Made by a program: the position numbers and the translations under genes. Below are positions 4,051 to 22,991 of a stretch of DNA of 64,000 nucleotides, in pieces (position 1 is the stretch's first letter; each line of letters begins with the position of its first letter). Source of the stretch: Sphingobium sp. TKS (GTDB lineage: Bacteria; Pseudomonadota; Alphaproteobacteria; Sphingomonadales; Sphingomonadaceae); NCBI RefSeq assembly GCF_001563265.1, contig NZ_CP005083.1:1863001-1927000 (forward strand), read 5' to 3'. A model generated the notes under the pieces. It was given only the letters and a program-made list of their open reading frames with translations, searched no databases and was not told the DNA's origin.

Positions 4051-4457
4051 CATATGTCGTAAGCCTTGTTTGTTAACCAAACCCAAGTTCAGCATAGGCT
4101 GAAGGATATGCATGGCTGATAAAAACTATATCTTTAGTAATAGACCTTAAGTTATTTTTCAGTCCCTATCGCATTAAAATGGTTAACAAAACTGGAATCT
4201 GCGTGACTCATTTCGCACGGCGGCGAATAAGGTCAGCCATCGGGTCAGTAAAAACACAAAAGCAGATGGTTAATCCGGGGCGGCAGTCGACTTTGGCAAA
4301 GAGTCCTGCCGGCGGGAGAACGTTGACTAGGGGCAATAGCTGATCCGCTGATTGCCGCAATGTCGGGGAAGGCGCCAGGTCCGTATGCACCATGCATTCG
4401 GAGCGAGGCCTTCTGCGCGCTCCTTCCATGCCCCCATGGCGACAGGTGGGATGGACA

Positions 4458-7400: not shown

Positions 7401-10400
7401 CAGCCGATCTTCGGCGCGAGCGGCTTCATCAGCGGCGTCACCCTGTCCAACGCCTATGGCACGCTCAGCATCACCGGCTTCACGCCGACCGTGGGCGCGG
7501 ATGGCGATGTGATCGGCGGGACGGTCAGCTACAGCTATGTCCTCAACGACAATACGCTGCTGCACACCGGCGCGAACGATGGCAGCCTGACCGACAGCTT
7601 TGCGGTCGTCGTCACCGACACCGATGGGTCGACCGATAGCGCCAGCCTGGATATCCGCGTGGTCGACGACGTGCCGACGGCAGTGGACGACAGCGCGGGC
7701 CAGCTCACGGAAAATGCGGCGGTCACGATCGACGTTTTCGCCAATGACGTAGCCGGGGCCGACGGCGTCGACCTCGCCAGCGGGGTAGCTCTGGAAACCG
7801 GCGCGGCCAAAGGCACCGTCGTCTATCAGGGCAATGGCGTATTCCTCTACACGCCCAATGCGGGCGCGGAGGGCAGCGACAGCTTCACCTACACCATCAC
7901 CGACGGCGATGGCGACAAGTCGACCGCCACGGTGACGATCAATCTGCTTCAGGATTCGACGCCGACCGTCACCGTGGCAGACATGACCGTGTCCGAAGCC
8001 GGCCTGCCCGGCGGCACGCAGGAGGACGGGAACAGCGAGACGGCGACCGGCTCCATGACCATCGCGACCGGCGGCGATACGCTGACCAAGGTCGAGGTGC
8101 AGGACAAGAACGGCGCCTGGATCGACGTGACGGCGGCCAATGCGGGAACGCCGGTGGTCGTCGCTGGCGCGGCGGGCATGCTGACCGTGACCTCCGATGG
8201 GGCGGGCCATTACAGCTACAGCTACACGCTGGCGGTCAATGATCCGATCCATCCCGACAATAACCCGCTGGATGGTGACGGCATCAGCGGCGCGGCCGAT
8301 CCCAAGGCGGGCGACGCCTTCGCCGTGCGCGTGACCGACAGCGACGGCGATCTCTCGCCGGCCGATACGATCAATGTCACCGTGCTGGACGACGCGCCGA
8401 TCGCGGCGCCCGACAGCGGTTCCGTGACCGAAGGCGACTCGCTGGTCGTCACGGCTGGCGACGGCGTGCTCCACAACGACCAGCCGGGCGCGGACGGCTA
8501 TGCGCCGGGCGTGGTCGGCGTGGCCAAGGGCAGCGACGCGAGCACGTCCGTCAGCGGTGATGTCGGCACGGCGGTCGCGGGCGATTACGGCACGCTGACT
8601 CTCTTTGCCGACGGCAGCTATCGCTATGATGCGACGCCCAATGTCATCTCGGCCGACAAGCAGGATGTGTTCGTCTACACGATCCGCGATGCGGACGGCG
8701 ATCTGGCGACGACGACGCTGACCATCAATGTCGCCAATGTCGCGCTGGCGGCGGACAATCAGACGAAGACGGTCTTTGAGGCGGCGCTGGACACCAGCAT
8801 CACCGGCGACGACATCGCCGCTGGCAGCGTCACCGGCAGCACGCCGGGTCAGCCGACGGAAACGACGACGGGCCAGCTCAATGTCGTGGGCGCAGTCAGC
8901 TACACGCTGACCGGCCCGGCGACTGGCAGCCATGGCCAGCTTCTGCTCAACAGCGACGGCAGCTACACCTATACGCTGACCTCGCCGGTCGATGGCCCGA
9001 CCGCCAATGACGGCGCCCTGCCGCTGGCGGGTGTGGAGGTCTTCACCTATCAGGCGGTCGACGGCTCCGGCAATATCGCCAACGGCACGATCACCATCGA
9101 TGTGGTGGACGATATTCCGACGGCGGTGGACGACGCCGCCCAGACCGTGGCGGAGGACGGCGCCAATATCGGCGGCAACGTCCTGACCAACGACACGCAG
9201 GGGGCGGATGGCGCCACCCTGACCTCGGTCACGATCGGCGGCGTCACGACGGCGGTCAACGCCGAGGGCACAACCAATGTGAACACGGCCTACGGCGCCT
9301 ATACCTTCACGGCGGCGGGGGCGTGGACCTTCAACCCGTCGACCAATCTCAACAATGCGAGCGGCGTCAGCGCGGGCTTCTCCTATGTCATCACCGATGG
9401 CGACGGCGACCAGTCGACCGCCGTGCAGCCGATCACTGTCACGGACGGCGCCGACCCAAGCGCAAGCGGGCCGGTCAGCCTGACGCTGGACGATCAGAAT
9501 CTGGCGGGCGGCACCAGCTCCGGCAATCCGGACTCGACCAGCGGCACCATCACCTTCACGCCCGGTTCGGACGCGATCACCTCGATCGTGTTCGGCGGCA
9601 CGGGCAGCCTGACCGGCGACCTGAACTGGGTGCGGGTATCCGACAATCAGATCACCGGTTCCGACGAGCGCGGCGTGGTGGTGACGCTGGACCTGTCGGT
9701 CGTCGGCAATGTCGCGACCGTCACGGCCACGCTCAACGACAATTACGACACGCATCCGGGCATCAATGTCGACGATCTGGTCGCGCTCGGATCGGTACAG
9801 GTGATCGCGCAGGACACCGATGGTGATACGGCCACCGGCACCGTCTCGGTCAGCGTATCCGACGATCTGCCGGTGGTCAGCGCCAATCCGGTGGTGCAAC
9901 TGGACGACGACGCGCTGGGCGGCAATGCCAACGGCACGGGCGACGATGCGAACAGCGTCAACGCCACCGGCACGCTGGGGCATGACTATCGCGCTGATGG
10001 CGCGGGCGGCATCACCCTGCTCGGCACCGGCGCGCCAGCCGGCTTCACGTATGAAAGCAACGGCAGCGTGCTGCTGGTGAAGCAGGGCGGCACCACCGTT
10101 CTGACCGTGACGCTGACCGATCCGGTCGCCGGCACCTATTCGGTGGCGCAGAATGCCGCGATCGTCCACCCGCTCGGCGGTGACGAGAACAATGTCAGCT
10201 TCGACATCGCCTATCGGGTCACGGACGCCGACAATGATACGGCCACCGGCACGCTGACGATCAATGTCGATGACGACACGCCGGTTGCGGCCGACGATAC
10301 CGACATCGTCAAGGAAGATGTGACGCTCAGCGCCAGCGGCAATGTGCTGACGGGCGTGGGCAGCGACGGCAATCCGGCGGGCGCGGACTCGCTGGGCGCC

Positions 10401-13400
10401 GACGGTCCGGCGGCGGGCGGCGCGGTGACGGCGGTCACTGGCGGTCCTATCGGCGGCAACGCGATCGGCAGCTATGGCACGCTCGTCCTGAATGCCTCGG
10501 GCGGCTATACCTATACGCTGAACAACGGCCTGGCGGCGGTCCAGCATCTGGACGACGGCCAGACGCTGACGGACAGCTTCACCTATACGATCACGGACGG
10601 CGACGGCGACAGCACCACGGCTGTGCTGCGCATCACCATCCAGGGCACCAATGACGCGCCGCAGGTCGGCAGCGGTGTTGCGGTTGTTTCGGAAGAGGGG
10701 CTGACCGGCGCCAATGCAGATAGCGCACCCGGCCTGCCGAACGACACCACCAATGCGACGGTGGCGACCGGCACGATCACCGCGAGCGACGTGGACGGCG
10801 ACGGCATCAGCATGACGCTGGACAATCCGGGCGCGGTGCTGACCGCCGACGGCCTGCCCGTCACCTGGAGCGGCGTCGGTACGCAGACGCTGACCGGCTC
10901 GGTCGGCGCGGTGCCGGTGATCACGATCACCATCACCAATGGCGGCGCCTATACGGTGACGCTGCTGCAGTCGGTCGATCATAGCGGCATCAATGTTGAG
11001 GATGTGAAGAACTTCCTGGTCCCCGTGAACGTCAGCGACGGCACCGCCACGGTCGCCACCAGCATCGCCGTCACGATCGAGGATGACAGCCCGATCGCCG
11101 TCGACGACAATGTGACGACCATCGAAAAGGCGGCTGCCTCCACCGGCAATGTCCTCACCAACGACCATGTCGGCGCGGACACGCCTGGCGCCGTCGTATC
11201 GGTCGGCGGCAACGCCATCGCCCTGGGCGGTAGCCAGACGATCGTCGGCGCCTATGGCACGTTGCAGCTATTCTCCGACGGCAGCTACATCTACACGCCC
11301 AAGGTTTCGGTGCCTTCGGGATCGTTCGACAGCTTCACCTATGTCATGCGCGATGCCGACAATGACACGGCCAGCGCGACGCTGAAGTTCACCTTCCAGG
11401 GCGACGCGAACAAGCCGACGGCGGACAACACCGCCGCCAAGCTGGATGATGACGGCCTGACCGGCGGCAACGCGGCCAGCACGACCGGCGACGTCGACGC
11501 CAATGTGGGCGACAACGGCTTGGCCGGCCCCAGCGAGGCGAGCTACAGCGGCACCTTGCCCTTCACCTTCGGCGCCGACGGCGGCGGCAGCGTGAGCTTC
11601 GCCAATCTGAACGGCACGACCGGCACGGTTGGTACGGATACCGTATCCTATAGCTGGAACGGCACGACCAACACGCTGACCGCGACCATTACGACGGTCG
11701 GTGGCCGGGGCACGCCGCTGTTCCAGGTCGTCGTCAATCCGACGACCGGCGCCTATACGGTGACATTGCTCGACAATGTGCTGCACGCGGCCGGCGGGAA
11801 TGAGAATGACGCCTCGGTCAGCCTCAATTTCCTGGTCACCGACAGCGACTATAACGCTACGACCAACCCGACATCCTCGGCCATCGGGCAGCTCAACATC
11901 TCGTTCAACGACGACATGCCCAGCGCCTTCACGCCGGCGGCGGGATCGGTGGCGAACAATGACAGTCCGGCGACGGCCTTCAACCTCAACTTCGCCAACG
12001 TGGCGGGCGCCGATGGCGTCGGCAATGCGCTGTTCACCGTCACCGACGGCGCGCCCGCCAAGGATACCAGCGGCGCGACGCTGCGCCTGGCCGGCGAAGA
12101 CCTGTTCATCTTCGGCAACGGCACGAATGTGCTGACGGCGAAGACGGCGGACGGCGACATCGGCTACACCATCACGCTTCAGCCGGGGACGGACAAATAT
12201 GTGTTCGACCTTTACGGCACGATCACCAACGGCAGCGAGATTTCGATCAGCAGCTTCAGCGCGGCGAAGGCGGGCAACACCGACTATCGTGGCCTGGGCG
12301 TCGATACCACCGATGCCATTGACGTGCTGTTCTCCGGCCGCAGCGCTTCGGGCGCCCGGGGATCGGTCAACACGGACAGCGACTCGATCGGCGTCGACAA
12401 CCAGTCGGTCAATCCCGACGAGGCGGTGCGCATCGACCTCATCAAGACGCTGGTCGGCAACCCCGCCACCACCACCGGCTTCGCCTATGCCGATCATCAG
12501 AGCGTCATCAGCTTCGAGCAGAATATCGCTCAGGTCGGCGGCAATCCCAACAATACGGTGTCGATCAAGGTCACGGCCATCGATGCCGACAACGACCAGG
12601 ATTTGGGCTTCTCGTCCGCGACGCCAGAGACAGGCGAAAGCTTCGTCCCGATCGCCAAGGTGATCGTGACCGATGTGAGCACGGGCAATATCTACACCTT
12701 CACCGGCACAGGCTCGCAGGGCAGCATCGGCGTGACATTCGCTTCAGGCAGCGTCACCATCTCTGGCCTGCAGGTAAACGACAAATATGAGATTGTCGGA
12801 ACCAAGGGCTTCGATGCGGTGCTGGTGGAATCGCCGCACGTCAACAACCCCTTCGACCTTGGCGTGTTCTCGGTCGAGACGCTGAACAGCGGCGCCCCGA
12901 TCAACATCAACCACGCCATCGTCGCTTCGGATGCTGACGGCGACAGCGTCAACAGCTCGGTCAGCGTGACGCTGACTCCGGTCGCTGTTCCCCCGGTCGC
13001 CATCGATCTCGACGGGGACGGGCTGGAGTTTGTCGGCCTGTCGAGCGGCGTGACCCATGATTATGGTCATGGCGAGGTTGCGACGGCCTGGGTGTCTTCC
13101 GATGACGGCCTGCTCGCCCATGCGACGGGTGGCAGCTATGACATCGTCTTTGCCGACGACGCGCCCGGCGCGGCGAGCGATCTGGACGGCCTGCGCCTTG
13201 CCTATGACAGCAATGGCGACGGCGTGTTCGATGCCAAGGATGCGGCATTCGCTGAATTCGGCGTGTGGCAGGACGCAAACGGCAATGGCGTGGTCGACGC
13301 GGGCGAATTCAAGTCGCTCACCGATGCGGGCATTGCCGCGATCGAACTGAACGCCGACGGCAAGAGCTACACCGCCGCCAATGGCGACGTCACCGTGCTG

Positions 13401-14168
13401 GGCGAAGCAAGCTTCGTCCGCACCGACGGCACCAAGGGCACGATTGGCGACGTGCTGTTTGCGACCGGCGCCAAGGAAAGCGACGCCAGCAAGACGGAGA
13501 GCACGGCCAGCGGCTTCAACCAGGCGCTGGTAGCGGCCAGCCTGGTCGCGGTGGCGGGCGCAACCGCGACCACCACCGAGGAGCAGCCCGCGCCGACCGC
13601 GACCGATAGCGCCGCGCCGGTCACGGAAACCGCGCCGGCCGCCACGGTCACGGCCGAGCCGACCACGACGCAGGAAGACTCGTCGACCAAGATCGCGGCA
13701 ACAGACGACAAGGCGACGCATGAGCAGCCCGCCGCGCCGGCCAGCCATGGCGGCGAGGAAGCCGCGCCCGAGCATGCTACCCTGTCCGGCGGCGGCGATG
13801 CGCATGCCGCAGCAACCGAAACGGCTGAGGCGCCTCAGCCCGATCTGGGCGGTCATCAGGGTCTGCTGGCGCAGTCGATCGACCTGCCGCCTGTCTTTGA
13901 CGGCAATGCGGCGGCGGTTCTGGCGGCCCAGCAGGCGGCTCCCGCTGCGAATGCGGCCGAGGTCGTGAAGGAGGCGCTGGGCGCCCATGATGTGCCGAAT
14001 ATCGATGCGCTGCTGGCCGCCCTGCCGGGTGGCGAGCATGTCGCCGCGCCCTTCCTCCTCAACCCGGTAGCGGGCGAGGCGATGGACAGCGGGCATCTGG
14101 CAGCGGCCACCGCCATCTTCGACGCGGCGATGGTGGCGCATGAAGCGATGGCGGTCGCCCATGGCTGA
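4458..14168 (+). CDS. Giant Lap-type repeat adhesin exported by type I secretion
   Basis: A 3,236-residue cysteine-free, acidic surface protein. Residues about 45-112 look like the retention module of LapA/BapA-type adhesins (TDINQIEVSGRNLIVHLP, then DGAVVMPRLVVGDVEIPSVN). PAAG at 118-121 is a candidate LapG protease site. From about 300 to 2600 there are roughly ten modules, each opening with a D-D-x-P-T/I-A-V-D-D junction (near residues 302, 567, 797, 1068, 1310, 1550, 1801, 1938, 2208, 2484), of the VCBS / T1SS-143 type with DGDGD calcium-binding turns. Residues about 2848-3007 form a Ca-binding segment (AIDLDGDGLEF, DSNGDGVFD, DANGNGVVD). The last 200 residues are an Ala/Pro/His-rich tail. 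I see no GGxGxD nonapeptide array. The ATG at 4458 is preferred over 4392 because AGGTGGG precedes it by 8 bases. The secretion genes follow on the same strand. Confidence 0.92.
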   Translation: MDFERDWNSKDTADHQQTLHPEAAALAAKGKAVHPGKMHHADVVRTVAPNPDGTVVLPAGTDINQIEVSGRNLIVHLPDGTDMVILDGAVVMPRLVVGDVEIPSVNLAALLIGEEPQPAAGPPRSSGGNFLGPDGNVGDPHGLGDLLPPTELLFPQPETREILPIAPDEEPEVTIITPDQPTGATAATAGVSEAGLPARGNEPAGSAAASDSERTTGTIAITANDGLAGVTINGVAITTVGQTVVTPLGVLTITSIAQDAIGYSYVLSDNVVGAPPAEVFTVVVTDNDGDQASATLTISIADDAPTAVNDVDSVTEDGPLVADGNVLTGSGGSDANATDGVADIQGADGAVVSTTGTFQGTYGTLTLTASGGYSYTLANGNAAVQFLVPGQTLTDSFSYTITDADGDTSTATLTITINGADDGITITGLNGAPGIEGAEVIVLENDLSDGSSPDAAALTKTGSFGVNGADGLSGVTVGGVSVLANGAFVAGQVVTTPVGTLTITGFTATATQGGVPTAGTFTYSFVLTDNSLGHSGAGVDSILQSFAVVATDRNGSTANATVDVQIVDDVPTANNDVDGVAAGTYGPETGNVITGAGTVSGAAGADVKGADGAVVATTGTFEGAYGTLTLNADGSYSYVRAAGTPGGVSDSFSYTLRDGDGDLSTATLRIDIANSDVMIISIPKVGEGTIVDESGLTDPVGSNAGSGVDTTDGTITYTAPDGPASVTINNIPITSVGQEIVTDKGILTITGISEGSIDYSYTLTTNTTGDNVTDSFVVTVTDVDGDQATDTLTITIIDDVPTATNDADSVREDGPLVADGNVIAGSGGGDANATDGNADVQGADGAHVSAIVFGETAGTVGAPLAGLYGSLVIQADGSYAYTLNNENGVVQGLDKNQTLTETFTYTLTDGDGDPSSATITITIQGSDDGVTINGLDGEGAEETVLENDLPGGSSEDAAALTQTGSFTLSALDGVATITVGGQPIFGASGFISGVTLSNAYGTLSITGFTPTVGADGDVIGGTVSYSYVLNDNTLLHTGANDGSLTDSFAVVVTDTDGSTDSASLDIRVVDDVPTAVDDSAGQLTENAAVTIDVFANDVAGADGVDLASGVALETGAAKGTVVYQGNGVFLYTPNAGAEGSDSFTYTITDGDGDKSTATVTINLLQDSTPTVTVADMTVSEAGLPGGTQEDGNSETATGSMTIATGGDTLTKVEVQDKNGAWIDVTAANAGTPVVVAGAAGMLTVTSDGAGHYSYSYTLAVNDPIHPDNNPLDGDGISGAADPKAGDAFAVRVTDSDGDLSPADTINVTVLDDAPIAAPDSGSVTEGDSLVVTAGDGVLHNDQPGADGYAPGVVGVAKGSDASTSVSGDVGTAVAGDYGTLTLFADGSYRYDATPNVISADKQDVFVYTIRDADGDLATTTLTINVANVALAADNQTKTVFEAALDTSITGDDIAAGSVTGSTPGQPTETTTGQLNVVGAVSYTLTGPATGSHGQLLLNSDGSYTYTLTSPVDGPTANDGALPLAGVEVFTYQAVDGSGNIANGTITIDVVDDIPTAVDDAAQTVAEDGANIGGNVLTNDTQGADGATLTSVTIGGVTTAVNAEGTTNVNTAYGAYTFTAAGAWTFNPSTNLNNASGVSAGFSYVITDGDGDQSTAVQPITVTDGADPSASGPVSLTLDDQNLAGGTSSGNPDSTSGTITFTPGSDAITSIVFGGTGSLTGDLNWVRVSDNQITGSDERGVVVTLDLSVVGNVATVTATLNDNYDTHPGINVDDLVALGSVQVIAQDTDGDTATGTVSVSVSDDLPVVSANPVVQLDDDALGGNANGTGDDANSVNATGTLGHDYRADGAGGITLLGTGAPAGFTYESNGSVLLVKQGGTTVLTVTLTDPVAGTYSVAQNAAIVHPLGGDENNVSFDIAYRVTDADNDTATGTLTINVDDDTPVAADDTDIVKEDVTLSASGNVLTGVGSDGNPAGADSLGADGPAAGGAVTAVTGGPIGGNAIGSYGTLVLNASGGYTYTLNNGLAAVQHLDDGQTLTDSFTYTITDGDGDSTTAVLRITIQGTNDAPQVGSGVAVVSEEGLTGANADSAPGLPNDTTNATVATGTITASDVDGDGISMTLDNPGAVLTADGLPVTWSGVGTQTLTGSVGAVPVITITITNGGAYTVTLLQSVDHSGINVEDVKNFLVPVNVSDGTATVATSIAVTIEDDSPIAVDDNVTTIEKAAASTGNVLTNDHVGADTPGAVVSVGGNAIALGGSQTIVGAYGTLQLFSDGSYIYTPKVSVPSGSFDSFTYVMRDADNDTASATLKFTFQGDANKPTADNTAAKLDDDGLTGGNAASTTGDVDANVGDNGLAGPSEASYSGTLPFTFGADGGGSVSFANLNGTTGTVGTDTVSYSWNGTTNTLTATITTVGGRGTPLFQVVVNPTTGAYTVTLLDNVLHAAGGNENDASVSLNFLVTDSDYNATTNPTSSAIGQLNISFNDDMPSAFTPAAGSVANNDSPATAFNLNFANVAGADGVGNALFTVTDGAPAKDTSGATLRLAGEDLFIFGNGTNVLTAKTADGDIGYTITLQPGTDKYVFDLYGTITNGSEISISSFSAAKAGNTDYRGLGVDTTDAIDVLFSGRSASGARGSVNTDSDSIGVDNQSVNPDEAVRIDLIKTLVGNPATTTGFAYADHQSVISFEQNIAQVGGNPNNTVSIKVTAIDADNDQDLGFSSATPETGESFVPIAKVIVTDVSTGNIYTFTGTGSQGSIGVTFASGSVTISGLQVNDKYEIVGTKGFDAVLVESPHVNNPFDLGVFSVETLNSGAPININHAIVASDADGDSVNSSVSVTLTPVAVPPVAIDLDGDGLEFVGLSSGVTHDYGHGEVATAWVSSDDGLLAHATGGSYDIVFADDAPGAASDLDGLRLAYDSNGDGVFDAKDAAFAEFGVWQDANGNGVVDAGEFKSLTDAGIAAIELNADGKSYTAANGDVTVLGEASFVRTDGTKGTIGDVLFATGAKESDASKTESTASGFNQALVAASLVAVAGATATTTEEQPAPTATDSAAPVTETAPAATVTAEPTTTQEDSSTKIAATDDKATHEQPAAPASHGGEEAAPEHATLSGGGDAHAAATETAEAPQPDLGGHQGLLAQSIDLPPVFDGNAAAVLAAQQAAPAANAAEVVKEALGAHDVPNIDALLAALPGGEHVAAPFLLNPVAGEAMDSGHLAAATAIFDAAMVAHEAMAVAHG

Positions 14169-14220
14169 TTTTGGGGCTGATCTGGAAATTTTCTCGCGGG
14201 GAATTTTGGGGAGAGTGAAT

Positions 14221-14928
14221 ATGCGAAATGCGTTGGAAAGGGCGGCGGCCGTCGGGCTGGTGACTGCCATGCTGACGACGACTGCGGCCTGGGCGGCGCC
14301 TGCTTCGCCCTTGCTGCAACTCGGCAAGTCCGAACTGAGGGATGCGCTGACCAGCCGTTACGACACGGCGGTCAAGGCTGTGGGCGACGCCAGCGTGCGT
14401 GCGGCCCAGGACAGCCGCTGGACCTACGCCGTCGAGGCGAAGAACCAGTGCGGCATCGCCATCGGTTTCATCAAATCCGGCACGAAGGATGCGGACAGCA
14501 TCAACAAGTGCGACGACTTTGTGGCACGCCTTTCGGCGCCGCCACCGCCGCCGGTGTCGGCAGCTTCAGCCCCACCCGCGCTGGACTGTACGGCACCGGC
14601 GGTGTCCATCTTCTTCGACTGGAACATGGACACCCCGCTTTCCGAAGGAGCGAGCACCATCTCCACGCTGACGCAGACGGCGGCGCAATGCGGCTGGAAG
14701 CGCTTCGGCGTCACCGGCTACACCGATACCTCGGGCGGCACCCGCTATAATGACGGTCTGTCGCTGCGCCGGGCGCAGAATGTCGCCAGCCTGATGAGCC
14801 AGGGGGGCATCGCCACGGATGCCATGACCGTCAACGGTCTGGGCGAAACCCAGTTGAAGATCGAAACCGCAGATGGTGTGCGCGAACCGATGAATCGTCG
14901 GGTCGAAATCACCGCCAGCGCGAATTAA
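14221..14928 (+). CDS. OmpA-family peptidoglycan-binding protein
   Basis: A 235-residue protein with a signal peptide (cut near TTTAAWAA) and a C-terminal OmpA-like domain at about 135-235: SIFFDWNMDTPLSEG, then VTGYTDTSGGTRYNDGLSLRRAQ, then the closing NRRVEI. The middle is linked by a Pro-rich stretch. OmpA domains bind the diaminopimelate of peptidoglycan. Here it probably sits in the periplasm and ties the secretion machinery or outer membrane to the cell wall. The ATG at 14221 has GGGGAGAG just before it. The gene lies between adhesin and TolC-type channel with small gaps, which supports a single operon. Confidence 0.85.
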   Translation: MRNALERAAAVGLVTAMLTTTAAWAAPASPLLQLGKSELRDALTSRYDTAVKAVGDASVRAAQDSRWTYAVEAKNQCGIAIGFIKSGTKDADSINKCDDFVARLSAPPPPPVSAASAPPALDCTAPAVSIFFDWNMDTPLSEGASTISTLTQTAAQCGWKRFGVTGYTDTSGGTRYNDGLSLRRAQNVASLMSQGGIATDAMTVNGLGETQLKIETADGVREPMNRRVEITASAN

Positions 14929-14940
14929 GGGGAAGAAGGC

Positions 14941-16335
14941 ATGACTATCATGCGCAAGACATGCGGCAGCCTGATCGCCCTTTGTGCGGCGGCGATGGTT
15001 AGCACGGGCTGGGCCCAGACCACCGATCTCAAGAGCGCGATCGCCGCGGCGATCGACAGCCATCCGGAGATCAACCAGGCGATCCAGAACAAGGAAGCGA
15101 TCGAGTTCGAACGCGAACAGGCGCAGGGTCTTTACCTGCCCCGCGTCAGCGTCGAGGGATCGGCTGGCGTCCGCCGTCTGGAAAACGACACCCGCCGCGC
15201 CCTCAACCTTGACAACCAGACGCTCTGGCCGCTGGAAGCGAGCGTGCGGGCCGAAGAGACCGTCTGGGACTCCGGCTATCGCAGCGCGGAAAAGCGGCGG
15301 CAGGCAGCGCGGACCGATGGCGCAGCCCTGCGCGTCGGTGAACGCTCGCAGTTCGTGGCGCTGAACGTCACCCGCCAATATCTCGACTATATGCTCCAGC
15401 AGCGGGTCGTGGCGGCGGCGGACGACAATATCGCCTTCCACCGCAAGTTGCTGGGCGATTTGGGCGAAGGCGTGACCAAGGGGTCGATCAGCATCGCTGA
15501 CCAGCAGCAGGCCGAAGAACGGCTGCAAGCCGCCCTCGTCCGCAAGAGCGAGGCGGAGCAGGACATGACCAATGCGGCCATCCAGTTCCGCACGCTGACC
15601 GGCCTGTCGATCGATCAGGTCACCATGCCCGATCCGGTGATGAGCGCGGTGCCGCCGACGCTGGACGAAGCCATTGCCGCCGCGCGCACCAACAATCCGC
15701 TGGTGCGTGAGGCAGAAGCCGATATTCAGGCGGCCCATGCCGTAGTGGATGAGGCCAAGTCCGAGCTCGGGCCGACGGTCTCGCTGGAAGGAACCGGCCG
15801 CGTCGGTCAGGATGTGGACGGCTTCAAGGGCAACACCAACGACATTCAGGGCCGGGTGGTCGTGCGCTGGCAGCTCTATAATGGCGGCATCAACCGGGCG
15901 AAGGTCCAGGAAATGACTCGCCGGTCGAGCGAAGCGCGTTTTCGCTTGAGCCAGCGCCAGCGCGAGGCGGAGGAAGATGTCCGCACCGCCTGGAATCGCT
16001 GGGACACGGAAAAGAAGCGCGTTACCGACCTGTCGCGGCAGGGCACGGTGTCCGACGGGCTGCTGGTGTCCTATCGCGAGCAGTTCAATGTCGGGCGGCG
16101 CTCGTTGCTGGACGTTCTGGATAGCCAGAACACCCGCTTCAACACGCAGGTGCGGACCGAGACGGCGCGTTTTTCCGAGATTTTCGCGCAATATCAGATC
16201 CTGGCTGCCACCAACACGCTTCTCGATACTCTGGGCATAGCGGCACCTTCGGGCGCAAACCCCTATGCGCGGAAGAAATATGATGTCCCAGATTTGCCGC
16301 CCGCTGAATTGCAGCGGCGGCGTTATCCGGGCTAA
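14941..16335 (+). CDS. TolC-family outer-membrane channel (LapE-like)
   Basis: A 464-residue outer-membrane efflux protein. It has a signal peptide ending near WAQ and two OEP repeats of long coiled-coil helices (about 30-220 and 235-430). It begins the mature part with DLKSAIAAAIDSHPEINQA, which is typical of type I secretion TolC proteins. The motif RVVVRWQLYNGGINRAKV and QFNVGRRSLLDVLDSQN near the end are family hallmarks. It would form the exit duct for the adhesin. GGGGAAGAAGG precedes the ATG by a few bases. In Lap systems this component is LapE. Confidence 0.92.
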   Translation: MTIMRKTCGSLIALCAAAMVSTGWAQTTDLKSAIAAAIDSHPEINQAIQNKEAIEFEREQAQGLYLPRVSVEGSAGVRRLENDTRRALNLDNQTLWPLEASVRAEETVWDSGYRSAEKRRQAARTDGAALRVGERSQFVALNVTRQYLDYMLQQRVVAAADDNIAFHRKLLGDLGEGVTKGSISIADQQQAEERLQAALVRKSEAEQDMTNAAIQFRTLTGLSIDQVTMPDPVMSAVPPTLDEAIAAARTNNPLVREAEADIQAAHAVVDEAKSELGPTVSLEGTGRVGQDVDGFKGNTNDIQGRVVVRWQLYNGGINRAKVQEMTRRSSEARFRLSQRQREAEEDVRTAWNRWDTEKKRVTDLSRQGTVSDGLLVSYREQFNVGRRSLLDVLDSQNTRFNTQVRTETARFSEIFAQYQILAATNTLLDTLGIAAPSGANPYARKKYDVPDLPPAELQRRRYPG

Positions 16336-16351
16336 GATCCATCTTTGGGGT

Positions 16352-16373
16352 CATCCGGGCGCAAGCCCGGATG
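16352..16373. repeat. GC-rich hairpin between tolC-like and lapB-like genes
   Basis: CATCCGGGC, loop GCAA, GCCCGGATG: nine perfect pairs with a GNRA-type tetraloop. It lies just before the ribosome binding site of the ABC transporter gene. It could tune operon expression or be another copy of the dispersed extragenic hairpins of this genome. Confidence 0.6.
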
Positions 16374-16385
16374 GGCGGGGAAACA

Positions 16386-17335
16386 ATGTTGGAACGAAGC
16401 ACACTCAGTCTGGCCGAATGGCTGGACCATCAAGGCACGCCTAGCGACGAGCTGGTGGAGAGCATCGCCCATGCGGCGCGGCATTTCGACCGGTCGCCGG
16501 GTATCGTAAGCCTTCGCGCCGGCCTCGCCGTCGATGAATCCGGGCGCTTGCCCTTTCATCAGGCGGAATCCGCGCTCGACCAGATCGGTCTCTTGAGCGA
16601 TCATGTCCGGGGACGGCTGGACAAATGGCGGCCGGGCAATCTGCCCGCCATCCTGCCGCTCCGGGGCGGGCGCTTCCTGCTGCTGCTGGATATCAAGGCC
16701 GGCGATGCGCTGGTCCAGCTTCCTCATGCGAGCGAAGCGGTCTGGGCGCCGCTCAGCGATCTGGAAGGCTATTTCACTGGCGAAGCGCTGGTCGTCATGG
16801 CCGACCATGGCCGTGAACGCGCCGAGGAACGTCCCTGGGACGAGCGAGTGCGCCAGCACTGGTTCTGGCGGGAAGTCTGGCGCGCGCGCGGCGGCTTCGG
16901 CTATGTGATGCTGGCCGCGGCGATCATCAACCTGCTCGCCTTCGCGTTGCCGCTGTTCACGATGAACGTCTATGATCGGATCATCCCGAACAAGGCGGCG
17001 TCCAGCCTTTGGGTGCTGGGGGTCGGCGTGATGCTGGCCTTCAGCCTGGATTTCGCGCTCAGGATCGCGCGCGCCAGGCTGGTTGACGAGGCGGGGCGCG
17101 AGATTGACGAACGCCTTTCGCAACGCCTGTTCGAAAAGGTGCTGAACACGCCGTTGGCAAGCCGCTCCGGCAGCACCGGCGCATTGGCGCGGCGCGTGTC
17201 CGAGTTCGAATCCGTGCGGGAATTCTTCACCTCGACCACCGTGGTCCTGGTGGTGGACATTGCTTTCCTCTTCTTCTTCGTCGGCATTATCGCGCTTCTG
17301 GGGGGCTGGCTGGCCATCGTACCGGTCGTCATGAT
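16386..17335 (+). pseudogene. Type I secretion ABC transporter, 5' half (LapB-like), interrupted
   Basis: The first 317 codons of a LapB/HlyB-type exporter. Residues 1-140 form a C39-like domain without an obvious catalytic Cys, as in exporters of RTX-type adhesins. The ABC membrane domain starts at about 165 (GYVMLAAAIINLLAFALPLF, MNVYDRIIPNKA). The frame runs to the ATGAT at 17331-17335 and then enters inserted DNA, ending at a stop codon at 17375. Joining 16386-17335 to 19528-20737 gives 2,160 bases, exactly 720 codons, the usual size of such exporters. ATG 16386 is preferred over 16371, which lies in a hairpin. The gene is not functional as it stands. Confidence 0.9.
17331..17335. repeat. 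Target site duplication ATGAT, left copy
   Basis: ATGAT directly abuts the left end of the inserted element. The same five bases occur at 19523-19527, exactly where the exporter coding frame resumes. A 4-5 bp duplication is usual for IS1380-family elements. Confidence 0.8.
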
Positions 17336-17351
17336 CCCACATTTCCCAAGT
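17336..17351 (+). repeat. IS left inverted repeat
   Basis: CCCACATTTCCCAAGT at the left boundary. Thirteen of sixteen bases match the reverse complement of 18991-19006 (CCTGCATTCCCCAAGT). Confidence 0.75.
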
Positions 17352-17376
17352 AAGGCGCTGATTTCGCTGTCCTGAC

Positions 17377-17400
17377 CATTATATTTCCTATATAAAACAT
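17377..17400 (+). promoter_or_regulatory. Candidate transposase promoter
   Basis: A short AT-rich stretch (ATTATATTTCCTATATAAAA) stands out in GC-rich surroundings about 35 bases before the transposase start. TATATT and TATAAA are possible -10 boxes. No clear -35 box is called. Confidence 0.35.
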
Positions 17401-17429
17401 GGTGTTGAAGGCTGCGAGGGGCGCGTTTC

Positions 17430-18785
17430 ATGGATCACCCAGAGGGTGCGGGCTTGCAACGGGCAGATCGGGTGGATTTCGACCCTCGCGTGCGGCTGGA
17501 ATTTCGCGGCACGCAGCTCAGTTCCGACGGCGGCCTTCTGGTGATGCGCGAGCTTGATGACGCGCTCGGGTTGTCCGATTTGGCGTCAGCGGCGCTGCGC
17601 GATACTCGCTCTGGCAAGAACACGGTCCATCGGCTCGACGGCCTGTTCCGGCAATCAGTCTTTGGGCGGCTGGCCGGATACGAGGATGTCAACGACGCCA
17701 ACCGTCTCGCCTGCGATCCGGTCATGCGCCAAGTTGTCGGCGGCAGAGCGGTCGATGCACAAGCGGCCTCGGCATCGCAGATGGGACGGTTCGAGACCGA
17801 GACGCTGGCTCTGGCCGGGAACCGTGCCGCGCTGGCCGACCTGAACGGGCAATGGATCGACCGGTTCCATGACCGTAACGGGCTGAAGTACATCGTTCTG
17901 GACATGGACAGCTCGGTCAGCCCGACCCATGGCGACCAGGAAGGGTCCGCCTGGAATGGCCATTTCGACTGTAGCTGCTATCACCCCAACTTTCTGTTCA
18001 ACCAGTTCGGGATGCTGGAACGCTGCGCCCTGCGCCATGGCAACGTCCACAGCGCCGATGGCTGGCGTGATGTTCTCGACCCCGTCATTGCGCGCTACGC
18101 GGAGCGCGACCTTGGTGGCAGGTTCTTCCGGGCCGATGCTGCCTACGCGATCCCGGCGATCTATGAGCGATTGGAAGAAGCGCGGTTCTTCTACGCCATC
18201 CGGCTGCCCGCAAACGCGGTCCTCAAGGACAAGATCGCGCATCGGCTAACGCGCCCTGTCGGGCGGCCGTCACTGACCAAGGTCAAGCGGTTCTTCGAGG
18301 AATTCGAGTATCAGGCGGCGTCCTGGGACAAGGAACGCCGGGTGATCGCCAAGATCGAATGGCATCCGGGCGAACTGTTCCCGCGTGTCGGCTTCATCGT
18401 CACCAACCTGCCGATGGAGCCGGACTGGGTGGTGCGGTTCTACAACCAGCGCGGCACCGCCGAGCAGCACATCAAAGAGGGCAAATACGCCTTTCGCTGG
18501 ACGCGGCTGTCGTGCCGGAAGTTCCGCGACAATGAGGTGCGGCTGCAACTGCACGCCCTGGCGTACAACCTGGCCACCTTCTTGCGCTGCATCGAGCTGC
18601 CCGAGGCCATGGCCGACTGGTCGTTGACCAGCCTGCAACTGAAGCTGATCAAGATCGGGGCACGTGTGGTCCGTCACGCCCGCACCATCACCTTCCAGCT
18701 GGCCGAGGTCGCTGTCACCGGCACGATGGTACGCGCCATCCTCGCCGCTATCCGCCGATTGCGAGCGCCACCGCTATGCGCATGA
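17430..18785 (+). CDS. IS1380-family transposase
   Basis: A 451-residue DDE transposase. Its N-terminus (RLEFRGTQLSSDGGLLVMRELDD) and the RVLD-type core are characteristic of IS1380. Candidate catalytic acids are D158 or D160 in YIVLDMDSSV, D236 in FRADAAYA, and E345 or E350 in RGTAEQHIKEGKYAF, the signature of this family. GAGGGG lies 8 bases before the ATG. The length is full, so the enzyme may be active. About 220 non-coding bases separate it from the right terminal repeat. Confidence 0.92.
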   Translation: MDHPEGAGLQRADRVDFDPRVRLEFRGTQLSSDGGLLVMRELDDALGLSDLASAALRDTRSGKNTVHRLDGLFRQSVFGRLAGYEDVNDANRLACDPVMRQVVGGRAVDAQAASASQMGRFETETLALAGNRAALADLNGQWIDRFHDRNGLKYIVLDMDSSVSPTHGDQEGSAWNGHFDCSCYHPNFLFNQFGMLERCALRHGNVHSADGWRDVLDPVIARYAERDLGGRFFRADAAYAIPAIYERLEEARFFYAIRLPANAVLKDKIAHRLTRPVGRPSLTKVKRFFEEFEYQAASWDKERRVIAKIEWHPGELFPRVGFIVTNLPMEPDWVVRFYNQRGTAEQHIKEGKYAFRWTRLSCRKFRDNEVRLQLHALAYNLATFLRCIELPEAMADWSLTSLQLKLIKIGARVVRHARTITFQLAEVAVTGTMVRAILAAIRRLRAPPLCA

Positions 18786-18990
18786 TCGCGATCCACGCTC
18801 AAACTGAACGAAAGCGGCTGGACAGATCTGTCCGCTGCGCTGAAAAACGCCGCCCCTGGGCAAGGAAACAGCGGCTTCGCGGTCTGATCCGTCCAGATCC
18901 AGCAGTCTGCGCGACCGCAGGTGCCGCTTGCGGCAGAAAATCCTTGTCTAGCGCTCGGATACAGGCGATCTTCACCTCAAACGACACGCC

Positions 18991-19006
18991 ACTTGGGGAA
19001 TGCAGG
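18991..19006 (-). repeat. IS right inverted repeat
   Basis: ACTTGGGGAATGCAGG, the imperfect mirror of the left end. The five bases beyond it are ATGAA, which resembles but does not equal the ATGAT left of the element. Its GGGGA may also serve as ribosome binding site for the HPP gene that starts at the next base. Confidence 0.72.
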
Positions 19007-19471
19007 ATGAAGTGGGCGACGACCGATGCGATGTCGTGGCGGCGGATCGGGCTGGCAGGCTCGGTCTTTCTCGCCACCCTCGCGCTGTTCGGTGGGCTCG
19101 CTTATCATTTCGCGATCGTTGCGATGTGGATGCCGCTGGTCAATTCGGTCGCGTTGATTGCCACGACCCCCTCGGCTCCCTCGGCGCGGCCCTGGCCGAT
19201 CATGGCGGGGCATGCCGCGACCGCGTTCGTCGGTTCGCTGGCCGGCTGGATGTTCGGCGCTTCGGTGCTGGTCGCGATCATCGCCGCCACGCTCGGCCTG
19301 CTGCTGATGATGGCGGCCCGTGCGGTCCATCCGCCCGCGGCGGCGACGGGGCTCGTCTTCACGCTGCATCCGGTGCCCCCGCATGTCGCGGTGCCGCTGC
19401 TGATGCTGGGCGCCGGTGCGGTGACGCTGATCGGCATGGCGCTGCGCCGCTGGGATCGCCCGTCCGCATGA
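19007..19471 (+). CDS. HPP-family integral membrane protein (captured passenger)
   Basis: A 154-residue protein with about four membrane helices and the name-giving motif in ARAVHPPAAATGLVF, preceded by NSVALIATTPSAPSARPWPIMAGHA. HPP proteins are small permease-like membrane proteins; some in plants and cyanobacteria are linked to nitrite transport. The ATG directly abuts the right inverted repeat of the IS, so either the natural start lies there or the N-terminus has been trimmed. The same frame is open back to 18776 in IS sequence. It ends 51 bases before the element boundary. It has no link to adhesin export and is best seen as cargo. Confidence 0.75.
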   Translation: MKWATTDAMSWRRIGLAGSVFLATLALFGGLAYHFAIVAMWMPLVNSVALIATTPSAPSARPWPIMAGHAATAFVGSLAGWMFGASVLVAIIAATLGLLLMMAARAVHPPAAATGLVFTLHPVPPHVAVPLLMLGAGAVTLIGMALRRWDRPSA

Positions 19472-19522
19472 CCCCCGGATTGGGCATCGCCTGAATTTCG
19501 GCTAGGAGCCGGCGGATCGGGA

Positions 19523-19527
19523 ATGAT
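19523..19527. repeat. Target site duplication ATGAT, right copy
   Basis: Second copy of ATGAT, at the point where exporter coding sequence resumes (ATG ATG GGG ATC ATG). Removing the insert plus one copy gives GTC ATG ATG GGG in frame. Confidence 0.78.
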
Positions 19528-20737
19528 GGGGATCATGGCGAGCGCAGGATTTTTCCTGCAACGGTCGATGGCCCGCCTGTCACGCGATGCCCAGGCGGAT
19601 TCGAGCCTGCAAAGCGCGGCGCTGGTCGAAGCCATTGGCGGCATCGAGACGCTAAAGGCCTGCCGGGCCGAAGGGCGCATGCTGGAACGCTGGCGCCGCT
19701 ACGCCCGCATGAGCGCGGCGACGCAGGAAAAGCTACGGCGCTTGAGTTCGAAGAGCGTGACCCTGGCGGCCCTCTGCCAGCAGGTGACGAGCATCGCTCT
19801 GGTGATCGGCGGCTTCTATATGTTCGCGGCGGGCGACATTTCGATGGGCGCGATCATCGCCATCGTCATGCTGGCCGGGCGTTCGCTGGCGCCGGTCGGG
19901 CAACTCGCCTTCGTCATTGTGCGGGCGCGGCAGGCGATGACGACGCTCGACAGCCTCCAGACGCTGATCGATCAGCCCGACGAGCGGCTGGACGGCGCGC
20001 GGGGCATTATCCCCAAGATCCGTAAAGGCGCCATCGTCGCGCAGGGGCTGGAGTTCGCCTATCCCGGCGCCAGCCAGCCAAGCCTGCGCGGCATCAATCT
20101 GCGGGTCGAGCCGGGTGAGCGCATCGGCCTGATCGGCCGGGTGGCGTCGGGCAAGTCGACGCTGGGCCGGGTGATCTGCGGCCTTTATCCGCCCACCGGC
20201 GGGTTGCTGACCATCGATGAAATCGACAGCCGCCAATATCATCCGCATGAGCTGCGTTCCGCCTTCCGCTATGTTGGCCAGGATGCCGAACTGTTCAGTG
20301 GGTCCGTGCGCGAGAATCTGTTGCTGGGCGCCCGCGAAGCCAGCGAGGAAAAGCTGCTGGAGGCGCTGGAGCGTTCAGGCGCGTCGCGCTTCTTCGGACG
20401 CGATGCGGCGGGGTTCGACCTGCATATCGGTGAACGCGGCAGCCGCCTCTCGGGCGGGCAACGCAGCTTCCTCGTCATGGCGCGCGCGCTGGTCGAACCG
20501 GCAAAGCTGCTTTTCCTGGACGAGCCGACCGGCGCGATGGACAACCAGACCGAGAATCTCTTCATCGACCATCTGGAAAAGGCGCTGGAGCCCGATCAGA
20601 CGCTGATCGTGTCGACCCACCGCCATGCGCTGTTGCGGATCGTGGACCGGCTGATCGTGATCGATCAGGGCGTGGTGCTGGCCGATGGACCGCGTGACGA
20701 GATCATCGGCCAGCTCCAGCGAGGGACAGGGCTATGA
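19528..20737 (+). pseudogene. Type I secretion ABC transporter, 3' half (LapB-like)
   Basis: The last 402 codons of the interrupted exporter, open from ATG 19523. It starts in the membrane domain (GIMASAGFFLQRSMARLSRD, then LVEAIGGIETLK) and holds the whole nucleotide-binding domain: Walker A GRVASGKST, signature RLSGGQR, Walker B LLFLDEPTGAMD and the H-loop STHRH. All ATPase motifs are intact, so the damage comes only from the insertion. If translated from 19523 it would lack most membrane helices and the C39-like domain. Its stop codon overlaps the start of the hydrolase gene (ATGA), which confirms the original operon structure. Confidence 0.9.
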
Positions 20738-21720
20738 GTGTTCTGGTCCGAAGCGTCGGCATCGCAGCGCCAGTGGCCTTGGCTATCGCAACGGCCGCAC
20801 TCTGGCACCATGAACAGCCTCGACCCGCCATGCAGGCAAAGATCGTGGAATCCGCTCCTGCAATCCCGCGCCAATATCTCGCTTTGGTCCAGATGACCGA
20901 GCAAACCGACACCGCAGCGGAAGGCGACGAGGCTCGCGAGGAAAATCAGCGTCTCGGCTTCTCTGGCGGCATGATCGCTTCGGCCAAGCCCTTCCGCGCT
21001 CTGGGACAAGCGGGCGAGGATCATGACCGCGCGCTCCAGTGCCTGACGCAAGCCGTCTATTATGAGGCGGCCCGCGAGCCCGAGAGCGGCCAGCGCGCCG
21101 TCGCGCAGGTGGTGCTGAACCGCGTTCGCCACCCCGCCTTCGCCAAGACGGTGTGCGGCGTCGTCTACCAGCGCTTCGACGCGTCGGTCTGCCAGTTCAG
21201 CTTCGTCTGCGACGGCTCCCTTGCGCGCCACCCGCTGCCTGACCTCTGGAGCCGGGCGAAGCGGATCGCCGCCGATGCGCTGGCCGGACGGGTCGAGAAA
21301 GAGGTGGGCACCGCGACCCATTATCATGCCGATTATGTCTTCCCGCGCTGGGCGCCGCATCTGGCGAAGTTGGCGCAGGTCGGCGCGCATATCTTCTATC
21401 GCTGGCCGGGCGGCTGGGGTCTGCCGGGGGCATTCACCGGGCGTTATGCAGGCGGGGAGCATATTCCGGCCTTCGATCCGGCGCGCTTCGCCACGGTCGC
21501 GGAACCCGCGATCGACTATCCGCCCGTCGCGGCCTTGCCCGAACGCCGGGCGTCCAACGATGTGGGCGGCCGCATGGATCCGACCAAGGGGTGGAAGCTC
21601 TCCATTCCCGATCCTTCGGCAAGCGGCGGCGCGTTGGGCGACATGCTCGCCCGCCAGCAAAAGGCCGCGCCCATAGCGCTGGCGGCCGACGACCATAATC
21701 TTCAAGGGGTGCAACCATGA
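20734..21720 (+). CDS. Cell-wall hydrolase, SleB/Hydrolase_2 family
   Basis: A 328-residue protein with an N-terminal signal or membrane anchor (VGIAAPVALAIATAALWHHE). The Hydrolase_2 domain lies at about 100-230: CLTQAVYYEAAREPESGQRAVAQVVLNRVRHP, with the Glu in YYEA as likely catalytic acid, then CQFSFVCDG and GTATHYHADYV. SleB enzymes cut peptidoglycan; in Gram-negatives they act in the periplasm. It overlaps the exporter stop by ATGA and its own stop overlaps the adaptor gene by ATGA, so it is locked into the secretion operon. It may open the wall for assembly of the export complex. That role is an inference. Confidence 0.87.
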   Translation: MSVLVRSVGIAAPVALAIATAALWHHEQPRPAMQAKIVESAPAIPRQYLALVQMTEQTDTAAEGDEAREENQRLGFSGGMIASAKPFRALGQAGEDHDRALQCLTQAVYYEAAREPESGQRAVAQVVLNRVRHPAFAKTVCGVVYQRFDASVCQFSFVCDGSLARHPLPDLWSRAKRIAADALAGRVEKEVGTATHYHADYVFPRWAPHLAKLAQVGAHIFYRWPGGWGLPGAFTGRYAGGEHIPAFDPARFATVAEPAIDYPPVAALPERRASNDVGGRMDPTKGWKLSIPDPSASGGALGDMLARQQKAAPIALAADDHNLQGVQP

Positions 21721-22991
21721 TTTCGCGCTGGGTACGCTGGCTGCGGGGGCAACCGGGCAACAAGCAGGTCATTCTTTACAGCGGCGGGGGCATGCTGGTC
21801 TTCCTGATGTGGGCCAGCCTGGCGCCGGTGGATGAAGTGACGCACGGGCAGGGCAGGGTGATCCCGTCCAGCAAGGCGCAGGTCATTCAGTCCGCCGAAC
21901 CGACCACGATCGAGGAAATCCTGGTCCGCTCCGGGCAGAAGGTGGGCAAGGGGCAATTGCTGGTGCGCCTGGATGACGCCATGCTGGCGTCCGAACTGGG
22001 GCAGATTCAGGCGGAGACGCGCTCGTTGACCGCGCGCGCCGGACGTCTGGAGAAGGAAGGCACAGGCACCGGTGCGGCCTGCGCGACCGGCGGGCCGGAA
22101 TGTCAGCAGGAACAGGCGCTTGCCGCAGTCCGCCAGTCCGCGCTGCGCAGCAAGCAGGATGCGATGGCGGCCGCCGTCGACCAGCGCCGCCGCGAACTGG
22201 GCGAAGCGCAAGCGACCATCGACAGCCTTGGCGGCAGCGTGCAACTGGCGCGCCAGCGTGTGGCGATGTTGGAACCGCTCGCCGCAAAGTCGATCATCCC
22301 GCAGACCGAATTGCTGGATGCGCGCCGCGATCTGGTGGATGCGCAGGGGCGGCTGAACGCGGCGCAACAACAGGCGTCGCGTGCCTCCGCCGCGATCCGC
22401 GAGGCGCAGGCGCAACTGTCCGAGGCGAATTTCCAGTTCCGGCAGGACGCGCTCAATGAACGCAGTCAACTCGAGGCCAAGATCGCCGTCAACAGCGAGT
22501 CTCTTCGGGGCGCAAAAGGACGGGCGCAGCGGGCGGAGATCCGCTCGCCCGTCGACGGCGTGGTCAATGACGTGCAGGTGACGACCATCGGCGGCTTCGT
22601 CAGTCCGGGGCAGAAGATCATGCAGATCGTGCCGGTGGGCGATAAACTGCTGGTCGAGGCGCGGGTGAAGCCCAACGATATCGCCTTCATCAAGACCGGC
22701 GACCGCGCCGTGGTGAAGGTGACGGCCTATGACTTCTCCATCTATGGCGGGCTGTCCGGGACCGTGCAGCAGGTTTCGGCCGACAGCGTCTATGACGAAG
22801 CGACGCGGGAAGCCTATTTCACCGTGGTTGTGGAGACGGACCGCGCATGGCTCGGCACTGGCGCGCACAAGCTGCCGATCACGCCGGGCATGGTGTGCGA
22901 TGTGGAGATCATGACCGGCCGCAAATCGGTGCTGGCCTATCTGCTCAAGCCCATCATGAAGGCGCGGTCGGAGGCTTTGAGGGAGCGTTAA
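21717..22991 (+). CDS. HlyD-family type I secretion adaptor (LapC-like)
   Basis: A 424-residue membrane fusion protein. One transmembrane segment at about 19-38 (ILYSGGGMLVFLMWASLAPV) is followed by DEVTHGQGRVIPSSKAQVIQ, the classic HlyD start of the lipoyl-like domain. A long coiled coil spans about 95-270, the second lipoyl half (RAEIRSPVDGVVNDV) follows, and the beta-barrel ends in ITPGMVCDVEIMTGRKSVLAYLLKP, the HlyD-family C-terminal signature. It bridges the ABC transporter and the TolC-type channel. The gene is intact and last in the operon. Confidence 0.94.
   Translation: MISRWVRWLRGQPGNKQVILYSGGGMLVFLMWASLAPVDEVTHGQGRVIPSSKAQVIQSAEPTTIEEILVRSGQKVGKGQLLVRLDDAMLASELGQIQAETRSLTARAGRLEKEGTGTGAACATGGPECQQEQALAAVRQSALRSKQDAMAAAVDQRRRELGEAQATIDSLGGSVQLARQRVAMLEPLAAKSIIPQTELLDARRDLVDAQGRLNAAQQQASRASAAIREAQAQLSEANFQFRQDALNERSQLEAKIAVNSESLRGAKGRAQRAEIRSPVDGVVNDVQVTTIGGFVSPGQKIMQIVPVGDKLLVEARVKPNDIAFIKTGDRAVVKVTAYDFSIYGGLSGTVQQVSADSVYDEATREAYFTVVVETDRAWLGTGAHKLPITPGMVCDVEIMTGRKSVLAYLLKPIMKARSEALRER

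Follow-up and report, generated by a model that had tools for sequence, protein, structure and literature searches.

Evidence for one-ended transposition of IS1247 with an HPP-family gene in Sphingobium, and a short base rule at its stand-in right ends

A mobile unit of 2187 bp interrupts a type I secretion exporter gene of Sphingobium sp. TKS and consists of one copy of the insertion sequence IS1247 together with 516 bp beyond its right terminal repeat, including a complete gene for an HPP-family membrane protein. The unit occupies positions 17336 to 19522 (forward strand) of the window, the 64,000-nucleotide stretch of contig NZ_CP005083.1 that was analysed here. Judging from sequence comparison, it very probably arose when the IS1247 transposase paired the true left end of the element with a stand-in right end beyond it, a one-ended event that yields a 'transposable module'. 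As the first-pass annotation of this DNA had described, the insert is flanked by ATGAT (17331 to 17335 on the left and 19523 to 19527 on the right, both forward strand), the two copies of a 5-bp target duplication. The genome contains the 2187-bp unit four times at 100% identity, as well as five further copies of the IS that lack HPP DNA. Because there are four identical copies, the window unit is beyond chance.

The IS itself (17336 to 19006, forward strand; 1671 bp) is IS1247, with 99.7 to 100% identity over about 1671 to 1683 bp to plasmid records annotated as IS1247 among the matches listed. Its 16-bp imperfect terminal repeats, on the left CCCACATTTCCCAAGT (17336 to 17351, forward strand) and on the right the true repeat that would have been bypassed in the window unit (18991 to 19006, reverse strand), agree at 13 of 16 positions when the latter is reverse-complemented, which bears out the count made from the sequence alone. 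Profile searches likewise uphold the IS1380-family DDE transposase recognised then: the 451-residue product (17430 to 18785, forward strand) matches PF13701 (2e-143) and the NCBIfam model NF033539 transpos_IS1380 (1.6e-116; 389.4 bits, cut-off 180). The HPP gene does begin right after the right repeat, its open reading frame starting at the next base (19007 to 19471, forward strand; 154 residues), and its product scores 57.4 bits with PF04982, above the gathering threshold of 27.2 (1.7e-15); the HPP protein of a native relative reaches 57.1 bits. A sigma-70 consensus scan of window positions 18600 to 19600 gave no promoter-like site for this gene. The stand-in right end (19507 to 19522, reverse strand), which reads inward TCCCGATCCGCCGGCT and has AT at positions 6-7, shares no more than 7 of 16 positions with either terminal repeat, the poor fit to the left repeat that had been pointed out earlier.

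The authentic right end of IS1247 can be placed at 1671 bp because plain insertions of exactly this length carry perfect 5-bp duplications, TCCAA at locus L008 of the window's genome and GCAAA in genome G059. Table 2 of PMC3281130 gives 16-bp imperfect repeats with 13 matching positions and 5-bp duplications for IS1247, and a length of 1672 bp as against the 1671 bp found here. The plasmid IS1247 copy Gem3 (L231, 60 to 1760) is bracketed by TAGAAG, one base out of register; either its duplication is 6 bp long or its right end is displaced by one base, which might be linked to the tabulated 1672 bp.

Positions 4392 to 22991 of the window make up a type I secretion cluster, of which the insert breaks the exporter gene. 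To one side of the insertion site are genes for a 3258-residue Ig/cadherin-domain protein, an OmpA-type protein and an outer-membrane efflux protein; to the other is a gene for an HlyD-type protein. The 5' part of the exporter gene (16371 to 17335, forward strand) matches PF00664, and the 3' part (19523 to 20737, forward strand) covers positions 297 to 695 of the 696 in profile TIGR03375 type_I_sec_LssB, scoring 468.9 bits, short of the 693.1 cut-off, which is to be expected of half a protein. The gene is intact in relatives: the two flanks, joined with a single ATGAT, give an alignment that spans the junction at all 19 loci tested (L126 to L144, from 19 Sphingobium genomes; 81 to 95% identity), where ATGAT is present once, so that the empty site sought since the first-pass annotation is found in an uninterrupted exporter gene. 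This test left out G020, which matches the 5' part more weakly, and four genomes with short matches only. No HPP DNA was present inside the exporter gene at any of the 19 loci. The insertion would inactivate the exporter, and export of the giant 3258-residue protein has probably been lost through it.

The window unit had been taken for a single event and is instead one of a family of HPP units, found in the window's species and two other Sphingobium species. The common core of IS1247 and HPP DNA ends on the right at 2187, 2399, 2610, 2876 or 3539 bp, each time with a matching 5-bp duplication, and the four HPP units of the window's genome use three of these ends (2187, 2610 and 3539), every one with its own perfect duplication. 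Copies A (G000:C1:1078623) and C (G000:C1:3995698) have 423 further bases in common past 2187, forming 2610-bp units flanked by ATTAG and AGAAG, respectively; copy B (G000:C1:1942584) is a 3539-bp unit flanked by ATGAC. Empty sites occur in relatives for A (12 genomes), C (four of four loci compared) and B (two of two). A 2876-bp unit flanked by GTTAA occurs in Sphingobium ummariense RL-3 (G131); its site is empty in the one comparable relative locus. In S. quisquiliarum P25 (G045), a 2399-bp unit with TGAAA is split across two contigs and the 2187 end also borders a unit at a putative ssb-like site, whose left and right TTAGA copies are on separate contigs; as the halves lie apart in both cases, it is the agreement of their 5-mers that suggests the pairing. 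In contig C119 of G045 the sequence departs at +287, with no matching duplication there; this contig stands, with C164, C171, C174 and C175, outside the resolved unit set. Contig C171 bears an IS1247-like copy (L114) with 86% identity across the 565-bp left query; the G045 contigs of its group all break near position 515, and the IS1247 sequence beyond is common. L114 may be a hybrid IS or an assembly effect.

The five right ends with their duplications, together with the empty sites in relatives, support the ISEcp1-like one-ended capture originally proposed for the window unit. If the units were instead composite-transposon remnants, the HPP gene would have moved together with an IS1247 copy on either side of it, the right-hand one being lost later. 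Composites of IS1247 are known, as in plasmid pSC52_3 with its TTGAT bracket at 4567 bp; nonetheless, such an origin is highly improbable here, since none of the resolved HPP units has a piece of a second IS at its right end and intact duplications directly touch five different right ends, so that five exact deletions would be needed.

IS1247 also carries DNA other than the HPP gene. The window's genome has nine copies, namely six one-ended units, one plain insertion (L008) and two whose ends were not placed (L005 and L009), and the units with cargo other than HPP, there and elsewhere, measure 2076, 2273, 2786, 3164 and 9074 bp. The shortest (L007, in the window's genome) contains a piece of a TonB-receptor gene and is flanked by CCTCG; the host sequence continues at that point in 11 of 11 comparable loci of relatives. 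The 3164-bp unit (L006; locus L046, G000:C1 2017000-2027000) contains an enoyl-CoA hydratase-type gene within TTTGG, and three of three relatives agree. Genome G059 holds a plain IS1247 parent, flanked by GCAAA, and two 2273-bp daughters (TTCAA and GTTCA) that both carry the 602 bp adjoining the parent. Plasmid p2 of Paracoccus sp. TOH has a 2786-bp unit (TGGAA) and one of 9074 bp (ATCAG), in which the left IS1247 is truncated at 1501 and a second, full copy lies inside.

These units bear on a further alternative, that the true element is a 2187-bp transposon with its authentic right end at 19522 and the HPP gene as a regular passenger. The 2187 end is used at both the window site and the ssb site of G045, and in A, B and C the additional DNA comes after it; this version of the element thus travels as one piece today. 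Such a transposon is nevertheless very unlikely as the original element, given that the IS alone inserts at 1671 bp with perfect duplications (L008 and the G059 parent), that unrelated cargo follows it in L006, L007, G059 and Paracoccus sp. TOH, and that the left repeat is matched at 7 of 16 positions at the 2187 end as against 13 of 16 at the 1671 end. The empty sites of relatives argue against taking the 1671-bp copies for deletion derivatives of 2187-bp ancestors.

For L005, the predicted end gives a 3671-bp unit, and three of three distant relatives lack a match beyond the left flank. At L009, no clean continuation was seen in 10 of 10 loci of relatives. L009 and L012 (L049 in G000:C7 and L107 in G059:C5) have different left flanks and 93 bp of right flank in common; no duplication marks the point where they diverge, and comparison with relatives reveals missing DNA beside L009. 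On plasmids, 16 of 227 matching records were hand-picked from alphaproteobacterial entries high in the list and are not a random sample; in these and genome G069, none of 21 full-length near-identical IS1247 copies, Gem3 included, was bounded at its own right end by an exact 5-bp duplication, and the same held for five copies at 84 to 86% identity and two truncated ones. Deletion or segmental duplication can also cause the absence of duplications, and the OXR1/OXR7 and TOH plasmid copies are clear segmental duplicates. In pSC52_3 of Rhodobacteraceae SC52 (L234, 3105 to 7671), two IS1247 copies in direct order surround a predicted aminoglycoside phosphotransferase gene; TTGAT stands to the left of the first copy and to the right of the true end of the second, and the 4567 bp between are composite-transposon-like. 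Several aquatic and soil alphaproteobacterial plasmids (L225, L230 to L233, L235, L238 and L239) have IS1247 upstream of predicted sul2, tet(G)/floR or other resistance genes.

Beyond the 2187 end, copies A, B and C all continue with CTTCT, within a repeat that is present in many Sphingobium genomes and sphingomonad plasmids and whose native copies read GTCCT-CTTCT-ATGATT. In ten comparisons with one native copy of the repeat, divergence set in 90 to 95 bp on, and at exactly 90 bp in six of the ten. The outer end of this multicopy sphingomonad repeat (L039, 8811 to 8900; L094 to L113) lies about 90 bp from the HPP-unit junction. Copies A and C have 90 bp of it in common with B, after which they diverge, B extending into a Tn3-type transposase gene (PF01526). 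The simplest reading of these junctions is that the 2187-bp unit landed in the repeat, presumably with duplication of CTTCT in A, B and C, and that later jumps took up flanking DNA, 423 bp in A and C and the Tn3-type gene in B. The 2399-bp unit of G045, which carries ssb flank, is by the same reasoning a second instance of this putative pattern of flank take-up. The difference between A/C and B beyond the repeat could result from movement of the repeat or from recombination between its copies.

Homologous recombination between copies of IS1247 or of the repeat might in principle also have placed the HPP DNA, the duplications then being coincidental. IS1247 and the repeat beyond 2187 are indeed multicopy, A/C and B part ways after 90 common bases of repeat, and segmental duplication accounts for certain plasmid copies (OXR1/OXR7 and TOH); yet recombination makes no 5-bp duplications, and the empty sites are restored exactly by removing the unit and one duplication copy. 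We therefore give this account hardly any weight, and as sole cause it is excluded by perfect 5-bp duplications and empty sites for the window copy, A, B, C, L006, L007 and the G131 unit. Recombination may lie behind the different outer flanks of the repeat copies that carry a unit.

The HPP cargo most likely comes from a sphingomonad locus with the order prfC-HPP-hydrolase, in which IS1247 would have inserted at the HPP start codon, a source suggested by native gene order and alignment and by the run of the G131 unit into hydrolase DNA. In genomes G765 and G625, of the same family and another genus, an HPP gene directly follows prfC and precedes a PF00144 hydrolase gene; the captured protein is 82% identical to that of G765, in an alignment that starts at residue 1, and 74% identical to that of G625, while G884 has only an HPP fragment behind prfC. 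The S. ummariense unit contains native HPP-locus DNA for about 200 bp past 2187, followed by other DNA, and past 2187 it matches the start of the hydrolase gene (78% over 157 bp in G765 and 73% over 178 bp in G625). The G131 copy was considered as the source and rejected, its duplication GTTAA sitting at the 2876 end. Of the source envisaged in the first-pass annotation, an HPP gene beside the same IS, the native locus was recovered and the IS-bearing copy was not: neither IS1247 flanked by ATGAA before an HPP gene nor a high-identity HPP gene without IS1247 turned up among 94 genomes of the genus, a peptide scan of genome contigs, 385 genomes of the class (E 1e-15), plasmids and 397 genomes of the family, which yielded only native relatives at 74 to 82% protein identity and the one fragment.

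The proposed course of events is as follows. IS1247 would have landed on the HPP start codon of such a locus, with ATGAA as the expected duplication, and the transposase would later have skipped its own right repeat and cut 516 bp farther on, where AT occupies positions 6-7. The visible part of this bypass is the 2187 end with its duplication around the window copy; the same end occurs at the S. quisquiliarum ssb site (TTAGA) and abuts CTTCT in A, B and C, and other copies run past it to new duplications at 2399, 2610, 2876 and 3539 bp. Cargo may then have grown stepwise, later jumps picking a right end farther out and taking landing-site flank along. Counting against this account are the failure to find an ATGAA-flanked source copy, the weak resemblance of the stand-in ends to the IS repeats, the irregular copies L005 and L009, and G045 contig C119.

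The stand-in ends themselves follow a short base rule. Counted from the outer end, positions 6-7 read AT in every one of nine distinct distal ends (GAT in six, TAT in two and CAT in one), which were placed by their duplications rather than by end sequence; both terminal repeats of IS1247 have AT there too. The chance of AT in nine of nine is 4e-12 at local base composition, or about 1e-9 after correction for 240 choices of position and dinucleotide, and in 20,000 random draws the best common dinucleotide reached at most seven of nine. Overall likeness to either IS repeat is weak, at 7 or 8 of 16 positions for eight of the nine ends, a level reached by 5 to 15% of nearby positions, and 11 of 16 for one. 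Out of sample, 11 of 20 unplaced copies have their own left 5-mer next to AT at 6-7 within 4 kb downstream; shuffled 5-mers gave an expectation of 3.7 (sd 1.6), and none of 500 shuffles reached 11. The 20 include related copies, and for one of the 11, SC52_3a, the end is the authentic right repeat of another IS1247 copy. The rule made two predictions in the window's genome, L006 and L005, of which L006 was then confirmed by relatives. Since L006 was nominated with the rule, only the first nine ends count independently; with it, AT stands at 6-7 in all ten ends and C at position 12 in nine.

This rule is likely a new clue to how IS1247 chooses its ends. We lean towards the view that IS1247 picks stand-in ends by a minimal rule (AT at 6-7 following C, G or T, mostly combined with C at 12), so that almost any adjoining gene can be captured and one-ended moves are its main mode rather than an accident; cargo would then grow stepwise, because the flank of each landing site can join the next jump.

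Single-IS units outside a conserved context are described in PMC3281130 as indistinguishable by classical in silico analysis. The AT rule offers a testable base rule for accepted ends and could help annotators to delimit such units. With six of the nine copies in the window's genome being one-ended units, single IS1247 copies move adjoining genes repeatedly in natural genomes, without a trap plasmid, and through the G059 parent-daughter set and the nested series of ends the stepwise growth of mobile cargo can be tested directly. No mention of the HPP unit or the AT rule was found in the literature searched; most subscription papers lie outside it, and absence from print is not proven.

In Xanthobacter autotrophicus GJ10, work by van der Ploeg from 1995 is said to have found that IS1247 activates and mobilises an adjoining haloacid dehalogenase gene, no second IS being needed. 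That case concerns the same IS in a laboratory-selected setting with a catabolic gene, whereas the copies described here are natural and carry an HPP gene.

In the accessible portions of PMC3281130 and PMC9330008, transposable modules (TMos) consist of one IS1380-family element, ISPme1 or IS1247a, and adjacent DNA of various lengths, and are compared with ISEcp1. The first-pass annotation regarded such behaviour as known mainly from Enterobacterales, a view overtaken by these sources, which place it on record for IS1247 and ISPme1 in Paracoccus and Xanthobacter. The Sphingobium units resemble the Paracoccus TMos in the variable DNA beyond the 3' end, in their differing end points and in IS1247 itself. 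The Paracoccus modules were obtained through trap-plasmid capture or hybridisation, whereas the present ends are placed by empty sites in natural genomes, by the presence of several copies and by a parent with its daughters; the HPP cargo, the Sphingobium hosts, the proposed stepwise growth and the AT rule do not appear in the TMo descriptions of those portions. ISEcp1 (ISEc9), also of the IS1380 family, moves blaCTX-M genes by one-ended transposition, and IS1247 resembles it in family, duplications and poor right ends; PMC12116815 gives ISEcp1 5-bp duplications, right ends with 3 to 12 identical bases and a capacity for large cargo. The terminal G of the right end, suggested there to be crucial for ISEcp1, occurs in one of the ten IS1247 distal ends, in contrast to AT at 6-7 in all ten. 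Thus, the mechanism is not new, because it is already on record for IS1247 itself, and the family is known as well; what seems new is the end rule and the stepwise growth of cargo that the nested units suggest.
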